Shown: one piece after another, positions 5,682 to 30,329 of the stretch
Position numbering within the stretch: position 1 is the first letter of the stretch
How the letters are laid out: each line of letters begins with the position of its first letter
IMG/VR virus record: IMGVR_UViG_3300025102_000172
Location: 1 to 30,329 of that record
DNA from: a virus
Reading direction: 5' to 3' (one strand)
DNA: 30,329 nucleotides
Notes under the pieces: model-generated
Database searches by the model: none
Told to the model about the DNA's origin: nothing
The model's input: only the letters and a program-made list of their open reading frames with translations
Translations under genes and position numbers: made by a program

Positions 5682-6287
5682 CTATACGTTTGATTTTGTG
5701 ATTATTTCATTCAAAGCCTTCAGTATTTCTTCATTAGTTGGCTCTTGTTTTTGCATAGACTCAAATTTATTAGTAAAGTAACCTTCTATAGATAAGCCCT
5801 TCAATTCCCCTGCCTTAATTTTTTGCCAAAGTTCTTCATTTTCTATTTTCATTTTTACCATCCACGTTCCTTTTGGAAGTGAATAGCCATACAAAGTACT
5901 TTTATCTGTTTTAGTGTCTTCTATAATCCAAGACTCAACTGTTAAAACACCTGACACCCTATCTTGATGCTCATAGGTAGCTTTGTGATGATTGTTATGT
6001 TTTAAATAAAGTTCACTGGCTTTTCGCACCGTATCAGGACTAAAATAGACGTAGTAGTCTGAATCCGTATTCGGGTCATAACGAAAGATTTGCTTGTTAG
6101 GAATTAAAGCGGGAGAAACTAACATACGCTTTTCTTCATCTATTTTAGCAAAAGTCAAGTTGTTTTTCTCTTTTCCAAAGAATACAAAGTCTTGTTCTAT
6201 TGCAGGTGATGATACTAAACTAATAGCATCTATTGCTAACTCTTGTGAGCTATCATCTATTACTAATTCTACTATTTTAGTTTCCAT
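5682..6287 (-). CDS. XkdF-like prohead protease
   Basis: A 201-residue protein of the XkdF-like putative serine protease type. The entry motif SLVSSPAIEQDFVFF (residues 24-37) is characteristic. H107 (in YEHQDR) and S166 (in GLSIEGYF) fit the His/Ser catalytic pair of the capsid maturation proteases; GxSxEG is the usual serine motif. These enzymes remove the scaffold and trim capsid proteins during head maturation. The gene starts 2 bases after the preceding one and is followed by scaffold and capsid genes, the expected order. Confidence 0.8.
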   Translation of the reverse strand: METKIVELVIDDSSQELAIDAISLVSSPAIEQDFVFFGKEKNNLTFAKIDEEKRMLVSPALIPNKQIFRYDPNTDSDYYVYFSPDTVRKASELYLKHNNHHKATYEHQDRVSGVLTVESWIIEDTKTDKSTLYGYSLPKGTWMVKMKIENEELWQKIKAGELKGLSIEGYFTNKFESMQKQEPTNEEILKALNEIITKSNV

Positions 6288-6289
6288 AT

Positions 6290-6913
6290 TTAAAATGATT
6301 GACTAGGTCTTTGTGGTATGTTAACTCCATTATATGCTTTTTCAATAACATTATCAAAAGATTTTCCTTGAGCAGCTAATCTTTTAAAATCTGCTAAACC
6401 AGGAACATCTACACCCATATCCTTTGCAACAGTTGTTAATTCATTAGAAATTTTATCTAATTCTGCTACTGCATCTTTTAATTTTTGAGAAGTCATAAAT
6501 AAATCTCTTTTTTCTTCTCCAACAGCAGTTGAGGCGTTATCGAATTTTTTCAATTCTGTTTCTATATCCTTTCTCATTCCATTAATAACCTTTACTACAT
6601 CATTAGCTCTTCCTGAAAATTTAGTCAAATCAGCTATTTGGTCTTGTGCTTTTTTTATTTCAGCTTTGACTCTTTCACTTATTTTTTGTCCATCTTGAAG
6701 AATACCTAGTTCTACTTTTTTAACTTCTGAACTTAAGTTAAATTCTTTTAATTCTTTTGCGTATTCTTCATACGTTTTTTTCCCTAGTGGTGTTGGTCTC
6801 ATTTTATTATATTTTTTAGGATTAGCTTTTTCACAGGCTTCTTTAGTGGCGTATTTACACTCACCAGTGTTCCCCCATTTATAGTTTTCGTCTTTACATT
6901 TTTTACACGGCAT
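6290..6913 (-). CDS. CxxC-headed helical protein, unknown role
   Basis: A 207-residue protein. The first 30 residues carry four cysteines (MPCKKC, then GECKY and KEACEK), which may bind a metal; the remainder is charged and helical with heptad-like spacing. It lies between tape measure and prohead protease, so a virion assembly role is likely, for example an internal scaffold helper or minor head protein. I do not recognise the family. A CTATTATATA motif adjoins its start codon, so this gene may begin the head transcript. Confidence 0.55.
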   Translation of the reverse strand: MPCKKCKDENYKWGNTGECKYATKEACEKANPKKYNKMRPTPLGKKTYEEYAKELKEFNLSSEVKKVELGILQDGQKISERVKAEIKKAQDQIADLTKFSGRANDVVKVINGMRKDIETELKKFDNASTAVGEEKRDLFMTSQKLKDAVAELDKISNELTTVAKDMGVDVPGLADFKRLAAQGKSFDNVIEKAYNGVNIPQRPSQSF

Positions 6914-6915
6914 AT

Positions 6916-6925
6916 TATATAATAG
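6916..6925 (-). promoter_or_regulatory. CTATTATATA motif abutting the 6913 start
   Basis: The minus strand reads AATCTATTATATAATATG, the last ATG being the start of the 207-residue protein. The centre TATTATATAATA is a perfect 12-base palindrome. It lies in the gap between tape measure and head genes. It is too close to the ATG for an ordinary -10 box unless the true start or the transcript start differs. Confidence 0.4.
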
Positions 6926-6949
6926 ATTTTTAGTTAGTTTGTTTGATTT

Positions 6950-8671
6950 TTAAATTGTAGCTCTACGTCTTATGTCAGCCAATTGGTTTTGGCTCGATGT
7001 CATTTCGTCGGTTACGACAAACGCCTTGATAGGTTCTGGGGCTTCTAGTCCACCAATACTAAAGTCACCTGACATCATTTGTGGTGCTGGTGGTTGCGTT
7101 TCAGCTGTAGCAGGTGCTGATATACTTCCACCTCCTCCTCCTCCACCTCCTGCTGATGCGATAGCTTGAACATTCTTTAAACCACTGGCAATTGCTGCTG
7201 CTGCTGCAATACCACCAAGAACAGGACCAACTACTTGAATACCTGCCATTGCTTTAAAAGAAGATTGTGCTGCTGCGTATGTATCAATAGTAGCTTGAAC
7301 GATAGCTGCTGCTTTTCCTGCTGCTGTTGTTTCTCCTAATACCGTAGATAGATTCCCTGCTGTTTCTGCTGCTATATTCATTTTTTCATCAGCAGTCATC
7401 TCAGCCCATTTAATTTCATTTTTAGAAAGTTCTTCAATAGACCTTACTTCTTCTTTTTGATAGCCTTTTATGATATCACCTCTTTCTTTTTCATATTGTT
7501 CAGTAATAGCAGCAGTATCTGCTCCTGCTTTTCTAGCCATTTCTAATTTTAATTCATACGCTCTTTCTAGTTCGGTTAATTCTAAAGCTAATCCTTCTAA
7601 TCCTGCTAGAAGAACCTCATTTTGTACTTCTCCTAATTCTTTTTCTAACGATACTTGGTTTGTAAGCTGTTCTGACATAAAACCTGCAATTTGTGCCTTA
7701 ATTGCATCTTGCTCATTTAACGCTTCTTGAAGTTTTATTTTATTTTCATCACTTGCATTTATATCTTTTTGTGCTTGTGCATAATCTACTGCTGCTTGTG
7801 CATTAGCTAACATTAGCTTTTCTTGGTCTTCTAATATAGTTTTTAATTTTTCATTAGCTGTAATTCTTTCAGCAAAAGTCTTAGTTTCATCATCTCTAAT
7901 TTGCCTTTGCAATTCAGCTTCTCTATCTTTCTGTTCTATGATACCTTGATTTGTTACAGCTGCTAATTCCGCTGCCTTTCTCAATTCAATTGTTGCTTTA
8001 GCACTTTCAAATGTTTCTGTTGCGTAATCCTTAATTTTCCCTGCCGCATTAGTCATAGTGGTTGCAAGTTTATCTACACTATTGTCAACCCCTGTCCAAA
8101 TGTCTATACTTTCTTTTCCTGCATCTTTTACACTATCAAATGCTGCACCAAATTCTCCCTCCATTAAATGACCTAGAGCTTTTCCTAAATGTCCAAAAGT
8201 ATCTAATAGACTATTAAACCTTTCAATCAGATTGTCTTTAATAGCTGTTCCAAAATCTTTTACGCTTTGTGTTGGGTCTTCAAATATTGACTTAAAAAAT
8301 CCTGTTATTTTACCTATATTGCTCTCTATAAAACCAAATAAATCATTGAATGCTATACTTAGACTTTCCATAGCAACATCAAGAGCATCTACTACTCTTT
8401 GATTTTTTCCTAATATTTCTTGGAATGCTTCAAACGCTTTATTCAATAAAAATATAAAGCCTGTTGCTGTTGCTAAAGTCTTAAAACCTACAGTTAGTTT
8501 TTTAACTCCACTTACTGATTTTTCACTTGCATCACCAACATTTTCAGTTTCTTTTGCCAAACCTTTTGTTTCTTCTTTCGCACCTTTTACAGATTGAGCC
8601 ATTTCATCAGTATCTTTAGTTACTGATTTTATGTTTGACTTAACTTCCATTTCTAAAACCTCTTTTGCCAT
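6950..8671 (-). CDS. Tail tape measure protein
   Basis: A 573-residue protein that sets tail length and is expelled ahead of the DNA on infection. Residues 1-70 are charged and coiled. A hydrophobic segment follows (TLATATGFIFLLNKAF), then long helical Ala/Glu/Lys-rich stretches. Near residues 455-505 there is a second hydrophobic Ala/Gly-rich part (VGPLGG-like, IAAAAAIASGL), then eight consecutive glycines and a Pro-rich end. At about 0.15 nm per residue the tail would be near 85 nm. It is the longest coiled protein of the genome and follows the tail genes. It is well separated from the tail assembly chaperone, unlike the usual close order. Confidence 0.85.
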   Translation of the reverse strand: MAKEVLEMEVKSNIKSVTKDTDEMAQSVKGAKEETKGLAKETENVGDASEKSVSGVKKLTVGFKTLATATGFIFLLNKAFEAFQEILGKNQRVVDALDVAMESLSIAFNDLFGFIESNIGKITGFFKSIFEDPTQSVKDFGTAIKDNLIERFNSLLDTFGHLGKALGHLMEGEFGAAFDSVKDAGKESIDIWTGVDNSVDKLATTMTNAAGKIKDYATETFESAKATIELRKAAELAAVTNQGIIEQKDREAELQRQIRDDETKTFAERITANEKLKTILEDQEKLMLANAQAAVDYAQAQKDINASDENKIKLQEALNEQDAIKAQIAGFMSEQLTNQVSLEKELGEVQNEVLLAGLEGLALELTELERAYELKLEMARKAGADTAAITEQYEKERGDIIKGYQKEEVRSIEELSKNEIKWAEMTADEKMNIAAETAGNLSTVLGETTAAGKAAAIVQATIDTYAAAQSSFKAMAGIQVVGPVLGGIAAAAAIASGLKNVQAIASAGGGGGGGGSISAPATAETQPPAPQMMSGDFSIGGLEAPEPIKAFVVTDEMTSSQNQLADIRRRATI

Positions 8672-16564: not shown

Positions 16565-17768
16565 ATTGTACATAATACTTACCTGCATTTGGATTATCTA
16601 AGTGGTATATTACGTTATATCTTATGCCATCTATTGCATGGTTAAATGAATCTTGATATAATTTCGACCCTTTATCTGCATATACATAGTTATTTAATTC
16701 TTTAGCTATGTTTGTTGATTCTGGACTTACTATTAATTCATAATCTTGCATTCTTGTTATACCACTTTCAATAGTTCCTTTCTTGACTGATTTAATATTT
16801 ACACCTAAATGCTTCAGGTCGGCAATAAGTCTTGGTTCTGCTGAATCTGCTATAATTAATTTATTATCTACTTTATCTAATATAATCTGAGCTAGTTCTT
16901 GACTTTTTAAACCATTACGATATATATGTTCTTTAAGATATATCTTTTTATGCTTTTTGTCAATAGCTACTTCTGTAAGTGAGTCAGGGTCTATACTAAA
17001 ACCGAAATCCATTCCGCAAGATGTCTGTAAATTATCGGGATTAAAATCTCCAAATGACCAACGTTCAAACACAACTCCCTCTGCTTTATCTAACCAACCA
17101 CCAAGAATTTTGTGAGTGTATTTTTTAAAGTTAGTATGTTTTATGTTCTTAATGCGGTCTAGGAAGCTTTGTGAGAGGTTTTCAATGTTATCTAGGTATG
17201 TACTATGAATATAACATATATTGTCTTTAAAGCCATTAAAACCACCCTCTACGCCTTTGCTTTGAAAGAACCTATTGTATATCCAATGTTCTTTAGTAAC
17301 AGGATTCAATATTAATATAACTCTGTTCTGTATATTCTTTTCTCTAATACTAAGGTCTATTGTATCAAAAGTGTTTTCATCAATAAGCTCTTCAGCTTCA
17401 TCTAACACCCAACAACTAATACCTTGTAATGATTTTAAACTTGCTGTCTGGTTACCTGCTGATGTTTTTATACCTCTGAATAAAATATCACTTTTGCTTT
17501 TTGTGTTTATTACCTCAGCCTTATTAACATAAAAATCATCATCATCATAACCTAACAAACCTATTTTTTGTAAAAATTCAGGGATAATAGATAAATGAGC
17601 TGATACCATTGTGTACCTTGTAAACAATATTCTAATGCCACTTACCATTGTAAGCAATGTTAAAAATACTGTAACAGCGAATGACTTTCCAGAACCTCTA
17701 CCTCCTGTTATAATAAAATAACGGCAGTCAGATTCAAATAAAGGGTTATATTTATGATTCAGTCTCAG
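16563..17768 (-). CDS. terL: Terminase large subunit (TerL), non-AUG start
   Basis: The DNA-packaging motor: an ATPase that pumps DNA through the portal plus a nuclease that cuts the concatemer. Numbered from CTG 17768 (401 residues), Walker A is GGRGSGKS at 22-29 and Walker B is VLDEAEE with D123 and E124. The RNase H-like nuclease carries D254 (GMDFGF), D308 (IADSAEP) and D380 (HAIDGIRY). The frame is open from 17780 but has no ATG, GTG or TTG before Walker A. CTG at 17768 or 17762 are the nearest plausible starts, overlapping the terS end. The first ATG and TTG codons in frame come after Walker A and would give a dead ATPase. Function is firm, start is not. Confidence 0.88.
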   Translation of the reverse strand: MRLNHKYNPLFESDCRYFIITGGRGSGKSFAVTVFLTLLTMVSGIRILFTRYTMVSAHLSIIPEFLQKIGLLGYDDDDFYVNKAEVINTKSKSDILFRGIKTSAGNQTASLKSLQGISCWVLDEAEELIDENTFDTIDLSIREKNIQNRVILILNPVTKEHWIYNRFFQSKGVEGGFNGFKDNICYIHSTYLDNIENLSQSFLDRIKNIKHTNFKKYTHKILGGWLDKAEGVVFERWSFGDFNPDNLQTSCGMDFGFSIDPDSLTEVAIDKKHKKIYLKEHIYRNGLKSQELAQIILDKVDNKLIIADSAEPRLIADLKHLGVNIKSVKKGTIESGITRMQDYELIVSPESTNIAKELNNYVYADKGSKLYQDSFNHAIDGIRYNVIYHLDNPNAGKYYVQ

Positions 17769-18108
17769 TTTTGTAGAATGTTATTAGTGGCATATGTACA
17801 GGCTTATCTCCTGATGTTACATCTATTTTATTTGTTTCATTCATTCCTAAAATATTTTTTGCTCCATGTATTACTACTGAAGGCACTTTGTCTTTTATAC
17901 ATTCATAGAATTTTGATTTTACAAAATCTTTAGCTATTAAGTCGACATCTTTTACTGCTTGAGCAAAATCTTCATCTTCTTTTAGCCATTTATAATAATT
18001 TGTTCTTGATAAGTTTGTTGCCTTTAAAGCTGTTGTTACTACTCCTAAGCTTGACTCTAGTGCTTTTAACATTTGTTTCTTTGCGATTTGTGTTCTATTT
18101 TGTTCCAT
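17752..18108 (-). CDS. terS: Terminase small subunit
   Basis: A 118-residue protein with an N-terminal helix-turn-helix (LESSLGVVTTALKATNLSRTN, about residues 13-34) followed by YYKWLKEDEDFAQAVKDV and a helical oligomerisation part. The arrangement is that of phBC6A51-like small terminases, which bind the packaging site and present DNA to TerL. It overlaps the ABC/GNAT gene by 14 bases and the start of terL at its end, so the three are co-translated. Confidence 0.75.
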   Translation of the reverse strand: MEQNRTQIAKKQMLKALESSLGVVTTALKATNLSRTNYYKWLKEDEDFAQAVKDVDLIAKDFVKSKFYECIKDKVPSVVIHGAKNILGMNETNKIDVTSGDKPVHMPLITFYKTETES

Positions 18109-19162
18109 TTTTTATATATCTAAATGCTGTTGTTATTCTATTTTGTGAGCCTGAACCCATTTTATCTTTTGATACACTTCTTCCATGATGATAGCATTTC
18201 CAGTCAATATGTTTTTTCAATGCAAATATTAAACTTGGTGTTGATGTTGTAATGCTAAATGTATATCCTTCATCATTATATTTTTTTGCTATAAAATCTA
18301 ATAACCTTCCTCCTATTCCAATACCTTGATAGTCTGGCAATACAACTAATCTATGTACTCTTTTTAACTTAGGGTTTTTATTAGGCATATGTAATACACT
18401 ACAAAAACCTGCTATTTGATTATCTACAAATACAACATAGGTATGAGCTGCATTATTATGAGTGTGACTCAGATAGTGATGTTTAGCAAAGATTCTCCAT
18501 GCTGACTTATCTCTTGTATTGAATATTTCAAATTTAATTTCTGGTCTATTTTTTTTTTGACCTTTCATTGATTGAAAAGTCATACTATCTGTATTGAATA
18601 TCCAATCAGGCAGCAGCCAATCTTGTACGTCATGATGACAAGTTACTGCAATAAATTGTTTGTCTGATTTTCTTATTGCTTTTTGCATAGCATAAGAACC
18701 TATTCTTGCAACCGTCCTGTCTACTACAGAAGTAAATTCATCAAACACTATTAATTTGTCATCTCTTAAAAGTGCTGTTGCTAAATCAACTCTCATTTTT
18801 TGACCATTAGATAATACTGAATAGGGTTTTAACCAACTTGGTGGAGAACTGAATCCTACTGAATTAAATATTTGAGTTATTTCATTTACACTTTTATCTT
18901 TAGGCATATCATCTAAAATTGTTTCTGCTTTATATTCAAAGTTAGTAACATAAGCATCTTCAAACAATTCTTTTGCTATTGTGGTTTTACCTGTTCCACT
19001 ACTACCAACTACTATACCTATTTGCCAATCATTTGGCATATCTATATTTCCTTGAAAACGCTCTTTGATATGTTCTGTTTGCAAATCAAACTTACCCATA
19101 ACTGATGCAACTCTAAAAGTTTTTTCAGGTTTTGATTCTCTTAAAATGTCAAAAGTCGGCAT
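18095..19162 (-). CDS. ABC-type ATPase fused to GNAT acyltransferase (COG2401-like)
   Basis: A 355-residue soluble fusion. The ATPase half has Walker A GSSGTGKTT (53-61), an ABC signature LSNGQ (117-121, Asn for the usual Gly), Walker B LIVFDE (137-142) with a D-loop, and an H-loop at HH176-177. The second half is a GNAT domain: KHHYLSH at 227-233 and the acyl-CoA loop YQGIGIG at 278-284. There are no membrane segments, so it is not a transporter. Such fusions occur in phages and archaea, often next to a ParB-like gene, as here (22-base overlap). The GNAT half recalls Mom-type base acylating enzymes. A role in DNA base modification is likely but unproven; the substrate is unknown. Confidence 0.75.
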   Translation of the reverse strand: MPTFDILRESKPEKTFRVASVMGKFDLQTEHIKERFQGNIDMPNDWQIGIVVGSSGTGKTTIAKELFEDAYVTNFEYKAETILDDMPKDKSVNEITQIFNSVGFSSPPSWLKPYSVLSNGQKMRVDLATALLRDDKLIVFDEFTSVVDRTVARIGSYAMQKAIRKSDKQFIAVTCHHDVQDWLLPDWIFNTDSMTFQSMKGQKKNRPEIKFEIFNTRDKSAWRIFAKHHYLSHTHNNAAHTYVVFVDNQIAGFCSVLHMPNKNPKLKRVHRLVVLPDYQGIGIGGRLLDFIAKKYNDEGYTFSITTSTPSLIFALKKHIDWKCYHHGRSVSKDKMGSGSQNRITTAFRYIKNGTK

Positions 19163-19662
19163 GTATATCCTTTTTTAGTTAGTTCATTATATAATTCTTG
19201 TTGTTCATTTTCTGATTTTAATTCAATTTCTACTCTAAATTCTTCTCCTATGCTATCAGATATATCATTTACATCAGTATCAAATTTCTTGTCATCTTCA
19301 TTTTCCCATACATCTAAACCCCATTCTGCTAATTGTACGCTATCCCATTCATTAGCTAATAAATCCCATTCCCATTCTCCAAAACCAACATTGTCTTTTA
19401 CTATAAATTCTTTCTTTTGTTCTTCAGAAAGACCTTCAGCTACTTCTATCCATACTTCTTTTAGACCCGCATCTTTACTTGCTTTGAGTCGCATATTACC
19501 ACCAAGCACCATCATATCTTCATCAACTACTATTGGTCTTAGCTTTAGCATTTCAGGAAACTCTTGTATTGACTTTACTAACTTCTTAAATTTATCATTC
19601 TTTATGATTCTAGGATTGCTAGGGTTTCCTTTGACTTTGCTTATCTTAACTTGTTGTTTCAT
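19141..19662 (-). CDS. ParB/Srx-fold nuclease-like domain protein
   Basis: A 173-residue protein with the ParB N-terminal domain: NPSNPR at residues 13-18, the strand RPIVVDEDMMVLGGNMRL (42-59), then FIVKDNVGFGEWEWDLL. It lacks the DNA-binding and dimer domains of plasmid partition ParB. The acidic linker and the end (NEQQELYNELTKKGYTCRLL) match phage ParB-like proteins that accompany ABC/GNAT fusions. Its last 22 bases overlap that gene. It may deliver the modifying enzyme to DNA or use a nucleotide cofactor, as ParB-fold proteins can. Partitioning is unlikely in a lytic phage. Confidence 0.75.
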   Translation of the reverse strand: MKQQVKISKVKGNPSNPRIIKNDKFKKLVKSIQEFPEMLKLRPIVVDEDMMVLGGNMRLKASKDAGLKEVWIEVAEGLSEEQKKEFIVKDNVGFGEWEWDLLANEWDSVQLAEWGLDVWENEDDKKFDTDVNDISDSIGEEFRVEIELKSENEQQELYNELTKKGYTCRLLTF

Positions 19663-19664
19663 AG

Positions 19665-19674
19665 TATATAATAG
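19665..19674 (-). promoter_or_regulatory. CTATTATATA motif upstream of the ParB-like gene
   Basis: The minus strand reads TTCTATTATATACTATG, the last three bases being the start codon at 19662. It marks the beginning of the ParB-like, ABC/GNAT and terminase gene run, after a gap of 32 bases. Confidence 0.45.
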
Positions 19675-19694
19675 AATATTGAATTATTTGTTTT

Positions 19695-19895
19695 TTAATA
19701 TTTTGCTACTCTTCGTGATAAACTATTTTCACGTCTTTCTTTTAATGCTTTACTTATTATCTTTCCTACGCTTGTATGATTTATTTCAAATATATCTGCC
19801 ATTGTTCGTAGGTTTTTATCAGTATTATTATCAAAGTAATATTCTACTATTTGGTCTACAAGTTCTTTAGAGTATCGTTTATACTTTTGTCTCAT
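19695..19895 (-). CDS. Small helix-turn-helix protein
   Basis: Sixty-six basic residues. An HTH of the transposase/Trp-repressor-like type spans about residues 8-50 (SKELVDQIVEYYFDN, then MADIFEINHTSVGKIISKAL). It probably binds DNA as a regulator of phage genes or as part of packaging-site recognition. It lies directly after the zinc-ribbon gene without a gap and before the ParB-like gene. Confidence 0.6.
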   Translation of the reverse strand: MRQKYKRYSKELVDQIVEYYFDNNTDKNLRTMADIFEINHTSVGKIISKALKERRENSLSRRVAKY

Positions 19896-20147
19896 TTATT
19901 TAAAATCTTCATTAATACCACGCTCACCTATCAGCTTTTCCTTTGCTCCATCCCATAACATATCACGTCTTTTACTTAGTGATGGTTCTGTTCTTTTAAG
20001 GTTTGGCATTCCTTCTTTTGGTTCGCTATCCATATACTTACCACATCCACATTTAACATCAGTTACCCATTTTCCATCAACAAAGATAATCTTAGCTTTT
20101 GCCACTTCTTTTTCTTCTTTACCACATTTACAACTATATAGTGTCAT
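19896..20147 (-). CDS. Zinc-ribbon-like small protein
   Basis: Eighty-three residues with two cysteine pairs (YSCKCGKEE at 4-12, VKCGCGKYM at 31-39), spaced as in a zinc ribbon. The C-terminal half is charged (LKRTEPSLSKRRDMLWDGAK). The start overlaps the methyltransferase stop as ATGA, so the two are coupled. A helper role for the modification genes is possible only by position. Confidence 0.55.
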   Translation of the reverse strand: MTLYSCKCGKEEKEVAKAKIIFVDGKWVTDVKCGCGKYMDSEPKEGMPNLKRTEPSLSKRRDMLWDGAKEKLIGERGINEDFK

Positions 20148-20743
20148 ATTATTCTTAATTGTGAAGTATGATTATTAAGTCTTTCCATAGCTTCATTGTA
20201 ATATTCTTTGTCAAGTTCACAAGCTGTCAAGTCATATCCTAAATTATGACAAGCAATAGCAATACTACCACTTCCTAAGTGTGTGTCTAGTATCTTATCT
20301 CCCTCTTTTGCATAGTTCATTAATATCCATTCATACAATGAAATAGGCATCTCACAAGGATGAATTCCTGCTCTATCTTTTGCTGCAAAATTAGTCCAAG
20401 TTTGATTGTACATTTCAATCTTCTTATGTATAGAACAAGATGCAATAACACATTTTGAAAAATTGGGCATTGGTTGATTCTTTATCCATACAATTGCTCC
20501 TCCATTTTCTTCAAAACAATTATAGTAGTTTGCTCCAAAGATAATTCTGTTTCTTGATACTCTTTCTAATTCATTGAAATATGTTTCACTAGGAATGTTA
20601 TTATTCCATTCTACTTCAGAACCTCTATTGTTAGTTTGAACAAAGTTCCCAATTCCAAATGGAGGGTCAACTATTGCAAGGTCAAAATAATTATCTTCAT
20701 ACCTAGCCATCAACTCCATATTGTCTTCATTAGTTATTGTCAT
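20144..20743 (-). CDS. DNA methyltransferase, DPPF type (N6-adenine or N4-cytosine)
   Basis: A 199-residue SAM-dependent methyltransferase. The catalytic motif IV DPPF is at 26-29 and the SAM-binding motif I appears later as DTHLGSGS near 153-160. Catalysis before SAM-binding is the beta-class order. A HPCEMP element (usually HPTQKP) precedes motif I. No separate target-recognition domain fits in this length. No restriction nuclease is nearby, so it is an orphan enzyme, likely shielding phage DNA from host restriction. Its start overlaps the DUF3310 stop as ATGA. Confidence 0.85.
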   Translation of the reverse strand: MTITNEDNMELMARYEDNYFDLAIVDPPFGIGNFVQTNNRGSEVEWNNNIPSETYFNELERVSRNRIIFGANYYNCFEENGGAIVWIKNQPMPNFSKCVIASCSIHKKIEMYNQTWTNFAAKDRAGIHPCEMPISLYEWILMNYAKEGDKILDTHLGSGSIAIACHNLGYDLTACELDKEYYNEAMERLNNHTSQLRII

Positions 20744-29611: not shown

Positions 29612-30329
29612 TTAATTGTAATATCCGTTATTTTTCATTGTTCTAGGTGCTTGTGCTACTTTTTTGTTGTTTGGCTTAGGATAAAAACCTTGACTTCTAG
29701 CTTTAGCGGTAGAAATTAATTTTCCATATCTTGTAATGTCTTTTTCTTTCCAAGCATCTTCTAATTCCATTACATAAATTTTTCTGATAAACCGATGGAA
29801 ACATTGTGGTCCCCCCTTATAAAGCCAGATGGAATATTTATTCGAACCTCCAATACCAAAACCAGGATTTACTTCCTTATTTTCTAATGCTACTAAATCA
29901 GATTTTTTATATAGTTTATTCGCACTCATCATTTTTCTACAAAAACTTCTTTTGGTTCCTGATTTATTAGTTAGTGCAGAATCTCTATCGTATTTATATC
30001 TTACTTTAAAAAATTTACCAACCTTTTTACTCCAACCATCTTGGTCATCTAATCCATCTCTATCAGATTTAGGTACAGTTGCAAGTTCTACTTTTCCTAT
30101 TTCGTTTAATTCATTTTCAAAATCAAAATCTTGATGCTCATCATCTACCATTTCTTCATCCAATAAAGTATAACCTTCAGGCTCGTCTTCTCCAAATTCT
30201 TCAATAAATTTTGATAATTCTGTAGCTTCAGAATGGTCTTTACAAGCCATATAAGCCGTTTTACCGTCTAATTCATGTTCGTGATACCCTTCACACCCTA
30301 AAGTCTTTGCGTGAGCTTCAGCTTCTTCT
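29612..30329 (-). CDS. Portal protein, C-terminal part (same gene as 1-1772)
   Basis: This is the end of the gene whose start is at 1772. Bases 29829-30329 duplicate 1-501, and 29828-29612 supply the 3' end that is missing at the left edge. The domain after the acidic linker has SGTKRSFCRKMM and NPGFGIGG, then YKGGPQCFHRFIRKIY, that is a T-x-R-x-F-C site and a G-G-x-x-C-x-H-x-x-x-R site. This resembles the C-terminal domain of Mu F / SPP1 gp7 minor head proteins, here fused to the portal. Relative to the left copy, residues differ at four positions (K/E, G/D, S/G, S/A). Confidence 0.75.
   Translation of the reverse strand, partial: EEAEAHAKTLGCEGYHEHELDGKTAYMACKDHSEATELSKFIEEFGEDEPEGYTLLDEEMVDDEHQDFDFENELNEIGKVELATVPKSDRDGLDDQDGWSKKVGKFFKVRYKYDRDSALTNKSGTKRSFCRKMMSANKLYKKSDLVALENKEVNPGFGIGGSNKYSIWLYKGGPQCFHRFIRKIYVMELEDAWKEKDITRYGKLISTAKARSQGFYPKPNNKKVAQAPRTMKNNGYYN
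29829..30329. repeat. Terminal direct repeat, right copy
   Basis: Right copy of the repeat described at 1-501, offset 29,828. Removing it leaves a circle of 29,828 bp in which the portal gene is uninterrupted. Confidence 0.93.

Follow-up and report, generated by a model that had tools for sequence, protein, structure and literature searches.

A ParB-like protein and an ABC ATPase-GNAT fusion as a predicted DNA base-modification pair in phages

The viral DNA considered here, positions 1 to 30,329 of IMG/VR record IMGVR_UViG_3300025102_000172 (hereafter the window), carries on its minus strand, beside the terminase genes, a ParB-like gene followed by a gene for a fusion of an ABC ATPase with a GNAT domain (ABC-GNAT). 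An earlier note, made from the letters alone, had grouped these two with three further genes as a five-gene module for modifying DNA bases, which raises the question of which genes belong together and what they act on. As judged from related loci, the conserved module is the ParB-like gene plus ABC-GNAT, usually situated just upstream of terminase, and the two products probably form a DNA base-modification complex that does the job of Mom. The linker joining the ABC and GNAT halves is in addition, on sequence evidence, likely a site of recoding, from which a short and a long protein would be made.

The two-gene unit and its exchange with Mom

The unit was delimited in a near-relative set of 80 IMG/VR loci whose ABC-GNAT proteins are 66–94% identical to that of the window. 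The end of the ParB-like gene and the start of the ABC-GNAT gene overlap by 22 nt (ATGCCGACTTTTGACATTTTAA; 19141–19162, minus strand), and exactly this overlap is found in 77 of the 80 loci, the remaining three looking like broken frames. It is kept across phyla, being present in Pseudoalteromonas SL25 (46% identity) and in Streptococcus, Lactococcus and Oenococcus phages (about 50% identity); elsewhere the overlap is 4 nt (actinobacterial phages) or 19 nt (Pasteurella and Leptospira phages). By contrast, the methyltransferase of the window occurs in one other locus of the 80, the helix-turn-helix (HTH) gene in five and the Zn-ribbon gene in 24, so that among the five genes only the adjacency of ParB and ABC-GNAT is far above chance. 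In the locus with the most similar ABC-GNAT (L001, 94% identical) the methyltransferase is missing and the genes that flank its position abut directly. On this co-occurrence the methyltransferase is a lineage-specific neighbour, and it, the Zn-ribbon gene and the HTH gene were ruled out as parts of the module, which leaves two of the five genes proposed in the earlier note. Co-occurrence with ParB-like genes, whose loss that note had named as a reason to abandon its reading, held up well: the pair is found together in nearly every relative, apart from the T4-like phages and a small number of other distant ones. The ABC-GNAT family is widespread, with matches in hundreds of viral contigs and at 468 genome loci, and carriers available in culture include Lactococcus P335, Leptospira biflexa LE3/LE4 and Arthrobacter EastWest; at the two bacterial genome loci examined the pair adjoins terminase or portal genes, and these loci are therefore prophages.

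The ABC-GNAT protein (355 residues; 19162–18095, minus strand) matches the Pfam families GNAT (1.5e-10) and ABC_tran (4.7e-9) and, among PHROGs, phrog_11143 (function unknown; E 6.3e-96), and its AlphaFold2 model has a pLDDT (predicted local distance difference test) of 89. The ABC half, residues 1–198 (19162–18569, minus strand), has intact Walker A, LSNGQ, Walker B and H-loop motifs and compares to many ABC ATPases with Z of about 15. The GNAT half, residues 211–349 (18532–18116, minus strand), has an HHYL motif and the acyl-CoA loop QGIGIG. Little or no variation is seen in these four ABC motifs or in the GNAT Q-G-x-G-x-G loop when 62 homologues are aligned, the invariant residues being G53–K59, L117-S118-G120, D141-E142, H176 and Q279-G280-G282-G284. 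By its match to phrog_11143, its homology to named members over the full length and its intact ABC and acyl-CoA motifs, the protein belongs to this family. When the fusion was used as a query, only ABC domains appeared among the matches listed from a PDB sequence search, and ABC ATPases filled those listed from a Foldseek search of the PDB. Among solved structures, where ABC domains took up the list, the best GNAT match of the GNAT half was RimI (Z 15.2). PADLOC and NCBIfam scans returned no equivalog.

The ParB-like protein (173 residues; 19662–19141, minus strand) matches Pfam ParB_N at 1.5e-5 and 25.4 bits, just under the cut-off of 26.3, and belongs with phrog_620 and phrog_498. Its N-domain, residues 1–96 (19662–19375, minus strand), was modeled as a CTP-binding ParB fold that superimposes on ParB with CTPgammaS (7bnr) with Z 13.3 and 2.3 Å rmsd (root-mean-square deviation) over 92 residues (VIA); the window protein thus has the N-terminal ParB fold of the ParB/Srx CTP-binding family. 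Residues 124–138 are unstructured in the model and the tail beyond them forms what we call the partner domain; as to the central HTH and the C-terminal dimer domain of a partition ParB proper, structure comparison bears hardly at all on the chain beyond residue 116. The partner domain comprises the last ~35 residues (FRVEIELKSENEQQELYNELTKKGYTCRLLTF; residues 139–173, 19248–19144, minus strand) and is a separable unit specific to ABC-GNAT systems. In Mu-like phages a protein of 40–60 residues (phrog_28816) overlaps the start of ABC-GNAT and matches the partner domain only. A hidden Markov model (HMM) of the domain matched at 80 of 80 near loci, 80 of 80 Mu-like loci, 52 of 53 other viral loci and 75 of 78 genome loci, and gave no match in the T4-like, Nonlabens, pT24, Enterococcus 9184, Thomasclavelia and SSU5 types. 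The N-domain is more widely shared: it falls in the same PHROGs as ParB-methyltransferase fusions (phrog_498) and accompanies both methyltransferases and Mom, whereas the C-terminal ~35 residues track ABC-GNAT, and most ParB proteins that adjoin a methyltransferase or are fused to one match the window protein only as far as about residue 150. Natural fusions of ParB, partner domain, ABC and GNAT in a single open reading frame (ORF) occur at two planctomycete loci (L284, 3278–5113, and L244). At the former, amidoligase-like and glutamine amidotransferase-like genes adjoin the fusion (5707–7773). In the phage-plasmid Salmonella phage SSU5 (L099, 2626–5770), two ParB genes, ABC, a small ORF and GNAT follow one another as separate genes. 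The ABC half also has matches in about 890 plasmid records, mostly of Klebsiella, Escherichia and Acinetobacter, and a version is therefore probably present in E. coli elements accessible in the laboratory.

What the pair acts on is suggested by the company it keeps. Arthrobacter phages Wyborn and EastWest have, in one slot between flanking genes that are 67, 71 and 54% identical, ParB plus Mom and ParB plus ABC-GNAT, respectively. The ParB N-domains of the two phages are 62% identical over 118 residues, and the C-terminus is swapped along with the enzyme, a zinc ribbon (CPNCG) going with Mom in Wyborn and the partner domain with ABC-GNAT in EastWest. ParB overlaps Mom in Microbacterium phage Antuna as well. 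In Mu-like phages Com (PF10122, E 5.6e-21) lies directly upstream of the small partner-domain protein and ABC-GNAT, which stand in the place of mom; Com of Mu used as the sole query retrieves ~69 of 80 Mu-like loci. In Mu, Com activates the translation of mom. At the corresponding site Pseudomonas phage GEC_PNG14 has Com and Mom, and its DNA is 70% identical over the 206 nt upstream to that of the ABC-GNAT phage Komp_PAO1_1. In those Mu-like contigs checked that had a detectable transposase, ABC-GNAT lies toward the end opposite to it, as mom does in Mu.

Membership of the GNAT half in the Mom sequence family was rejected, since no significant profile similarity was found. Comparison with Mom (PF25680) by hhalign gave probabilities of 0.4–3.6%, against 79–88% for the GNAT of SSU5, and neither a profile of 30 close Mom sequences nor one of five diverse ones gave a signal. 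Mom did not appear in the Pfam scan of ABC-GNAT at E<=0.1, nor among the 50 viral structure matches listed for it, a list that is uninformative on likeness to Mom. Because it replaces Mom at these loci without resembling it in profile, ABC-GNAT is treated here as a protein that probably takes the place of Mom without being a member of its family. Aeromonas phage PX29 (L091) has a Mom-like gene distinct from its ABC-GNAT gene. At many Mu-like loci (L092, L084, L155–L234) a gene of formyltransferase fold (PF00551, phrog_9240) follows ABC-GNAT, and its product may supply or process the transferred group.

The slippery linker

The two halves of the window protein are joined through the codons CAA AAA AAA AAT AGA (18559–18545, minus strand). 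The slippery part of this linker, CAA-AAA-AAA-AAT-AG (18559–18546), contains a run of ten A (A10; 18558–18549), the longest A/T run in the window, followed directly by UAG in the -1 frame (18548–18546). All 95 close homologues examined have CAA and A10 and then a -1-frame stop, TAG in 94 and TAA in one. Nowhere else in the gene are codons as conserved as in the linker: four consecutive codons are invariant in 26 homologues of at most 85% mutual identity, and codon identity is 0.99 there as compared with a mean of 0.73 for five-codon windows conserved in amino acid sequence. The predicted outcome of a -1 shift, or of an mRNA with one A too many, is a 205-residue ABC-only protein.

In other lineages, namely Firmicutes phages, Spirosoma, Gilliamella, Alistipes, Alicyclobacillus and Dojkabacteria, the gene is split: the ABC frame ends alone and the GNAT half lies in the -1 frame, with an overlap of ~100 nt. 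The frame of GNAT relative to ABC is -1 at 48 loci and +1 at six, one locus has an in-frame stop and 172 are fused; after removal of redundancy, 35 at -1 stand against 5 at +1 (p 1.4e-6). At 20 of these 35 junctions there is an A/T run of at least 7; control windows taken from these genes have one in 13 of 402 cases (p 7e-17, a value that ignores kinship below 80% identity). The conserved slippery site at a domain boundary and the shifted-frame stop directly after it are features of dnaX-type recoding, and this pattern, with the halves in different frames elsewhere and a preference for -1, is the ground on which such recoding is predicted. The separate ABC and GNAT genes of SSU5-type phage-plasmids agree with the usefulness of a free ABC subunit. 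In Tenacibaculum phage pT24 an in-frame TGA lies within the GNAT half (L096, 4619–4621), after which clear GNAT coding resumes in the same frame.

Proposed mechanism and its alternatives

On the reading that the ParB-like and ABC-GNAT proteins form a DNA base-modification complex, the CTP-binding ParB N-domain would serve as the DNA-side adaptor, a role proposed because this domain is also found with phage methyltransferases and Mom, and the last ~35 residues of ParB would hold ABC-GNAT. The ABC ATPase would dimerise as a clamp on DNA so that a base is exposed, and the GNAT half would move an acyl group from acyl-CoA onto an exocyclic amine of that base. Modification would take place late in infection, before packaging, and would shield the DNA from restriction; such late protective action fits the site of the pair just before terminase. 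Part of the product would stop at A10 as the ABC-only form, and co-production of ABC and ABC-GNAT could lead to an asymmetric dimer of ABC domains in which a single subunit bears a catalytic arm. We infer DNA as the substrate from a context that supports it well, and the earlier note's view of ABC-GNAT and ParB as a DNA-modification pair is strengthened by two independent replacements of Mom, the shared ParB and Com companions and the natural fusions. The acyl donor, the base, the acyl chemistry, the use of ATP to expose the base, the stoichiometry of the complex and recoding in vivo are likewise inferred, whereas the conservation of the pair, the partner domain, the slot replacement and the conserved slip site are seen in the sequences themselves. 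We would give an even chance to the fuller proposal, that recoded short and long subunits and a ParB adaptor make an asymmetric clamp that writes a new acyl mark and has replaced Mom in several lineages.

Several observations count against parts of this picture. The GNAT half lacks a significant profile match to Mom, and RimI, its best solved-structure GNAT match, is a protein acetyltransferase; T4-like, Nonlabens and pT24 relatives have neither ParB nor the partner domain. With regard to recoding, the 70 nt downstream of the slip site fold like shuffled sequences and form no stable RNA structure, although a downstream stem-loop is not needed for transcriptional slippage. An A/T run of at least 7 is missing at the junction in 15 of the 35 split lineages, and no such run is present in the Mu-like and SL25-like members, whose halves are fused.

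The GNAT could instead acetylate a host protein (RNA polymerase or a ribosomal protein) or a small molecule, with ParB and the ABC ATPase only targeting or regulating it. The alignment with RimI would agree with this, as would the existence of phage GNATs that act on RNA polymerase (PMC7824862), but the exchange of Mom and ABC-GNAT in two unrelated phage groups, the retention of Com and a ParB adaptor common to methyltransferases and Mom all point to DNA, which makes a protein or small-molecule target unlikely. The fold of RimI is moreover generic among GNATs. A DNA substrate is also what the earlier note had in mind when it took all five genes, the methyltransferase included, as one multi-step base-modification pathway, and the genes are indeed tightly packed in the window and the methyltransferase is a genuine N6_N4_Mtase. 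A pathway of five genes is nevertheless extremely doubtful, given that the methyltransferase is missing from 79 of 80 related loci, that of the 94% identical ABC-GNAT among them, and that the HTH and Zn-ribbon genes are as scarce as described above.

Two other explanations concern A10. It might be a phase-variable contingency tract, in which replication slippage toggles the GNAT half between phage generations, instead of both proteins being made in each infection; A9, A10 and A11 and differing frames do occur among relatives. At one locus (L418), for instance, the tract is A11 and the halves are out of frame, whereas a relative at 92% has A10. Yet among loci with the downstream TAGA, 142 are fused with A10 as against one with A11 out of frame, and in split lineages GNAT stays at -1 whether the run is T7, T9, A9 or another, so that a fixed recoding signal fits better and toggling is quite unlikely. 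It is also very unlikely that A10 has no function and arose by chance from A+T-rich codons in a QKKNRP linker that is itself conserved. Close relatives have a GC content of 29% and use AAA for 85% of their lysines, but codon use of this kind would not account for four invariant codons in 26 homologues at a codon identity far above that of other conserved windows, for a -1 stop that persists through codon change (TAG with AGG; TAA in L017), or for frame splits that fall at the same place in other lineages.

If the base-modification reading is true, ATP-driven, ParB-guided marking of DNA joins the anti-restriction repertoire of phages, and dnaX-like recoding would be seen in an enzyme that modifies DNA. 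The two-gene unit, the small partner-domain protein, the interchange with Mom and the predicted short and long products define the set to be co-expressed and what to look for.

Neighbouring genes and relation to known systems

The five ORFs and the motifs described in the earlier note were all recovered on the minus strand. Upstream of ParB lie the methyltransferase gene (20743–20144; Pfam N6_N4_Mtase, 3e-16), the Zn-ribbon gene (20147–19896; without a Pfam match) and the HTH gene (19895–19695; Pfam match weak), and terS (18108–17752) follows ABC-GNAT. Methyltransferase and Zn-ribbon genes overlap by 4 nt, and ABC-GNAT and terS by 14 nt. The frame of the large terminase is open 5' of its first ATG, GTG or TTG (17657–17762, minus strand) and codes there for the Walker A motif TGGRGSGKS; its start is therefore probably close to a CTG at 17762, which would make the gene overlap terS. 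The ends of the window show an imperfect terminal repetition (1–~500 and 29829–30329), with bases 201–240, in the region of the first ORF, found again at ~30028, close to the right end. This repetition makes it probable that the contig is a whole genome, terminally redundant or circular, with a discrepancy in its assembly.

That ABC-GNAT proteins acylate bases is not a new idea but a published prediction of 2013: an uncharacterised acyl modification of nucleobases was predicted for a GNAT coupled to an ABC ATPase (Iyer 2013, as cited in PMC7824862), and PX29p085, a homologue of the window protein, is listed as a predicted ABC-ATPase-coupled GNAT base modifier (PMC8056088). A literature search found no experimental trial of this prediction, a search for COG2401 found nothing, and a search of partial coverage found no report of the recoding, the partner domain or the link to com. 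The earlier note, too, mentions neither the slippery linker nor the partner domain as a separable unit, nor the com/mom locus. The predicted modifiers of PX29 and pT24 share with the window protein the order of the two domains and the predicted role, at 34% identity over 93% and 35% over 78% of the query, respectively. They differ in lacking ParB and the partner domain, whereas the window type has in addition a ParB adaptor, the exact 22-nt overlap and the A10 site, some of which Iyer 2013 may already contain.

Mom and Com (PF25680, PF10122) resemble the present system in position, in that relatives of the window pair occupy the same late locus behind Com in Mu-like phages and, in one Arthrobacter phage, a relative's ABC-GNAT sits beside ParB in the slot that Mom has in another. 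Mom is likewise a GNAT-superfamily enzyme, and acylation of a base amine is presumed for both. ABC-GNAT is distinguished by its ABC ATPase and partner domain and by the lack of significant profile similarity, and the ParB linked to Mom has a C-terminal zinc ribbon. The ParB-methyltransferase fusions of phrog_498 and the ParBc genes that flank CmoX, an experimentally proven base modifier (PMC12783734), have ParB N-domains of the same families and a base-modifying partner; catalysis there falls, however, to a methyl or carboxymethyl transferase, and the ParB matches end before the ABC-GNAT-specific tail.

The closest parallel to the linker is dnaX. A -1 frameshift in E. coli dnaX and slippage at a 9-base run in Thermus dnaX give tau and gamma, runs of nine A or nine T slip efficiently in bacteria, and a reversed dnaX arrangement occurs in other bacteria (PMC5009743). 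ABC-GNAT is a different gene without a downstream stem-loop, and its two products are predicted from sequence. As in dnaX, a slippery A run lies at a domain boundary with a -1 stop directly after it, the short form is an ATPase without the C-terminal domain, and arrangements with the long form in frame 0 and in the -1 frame both occur.

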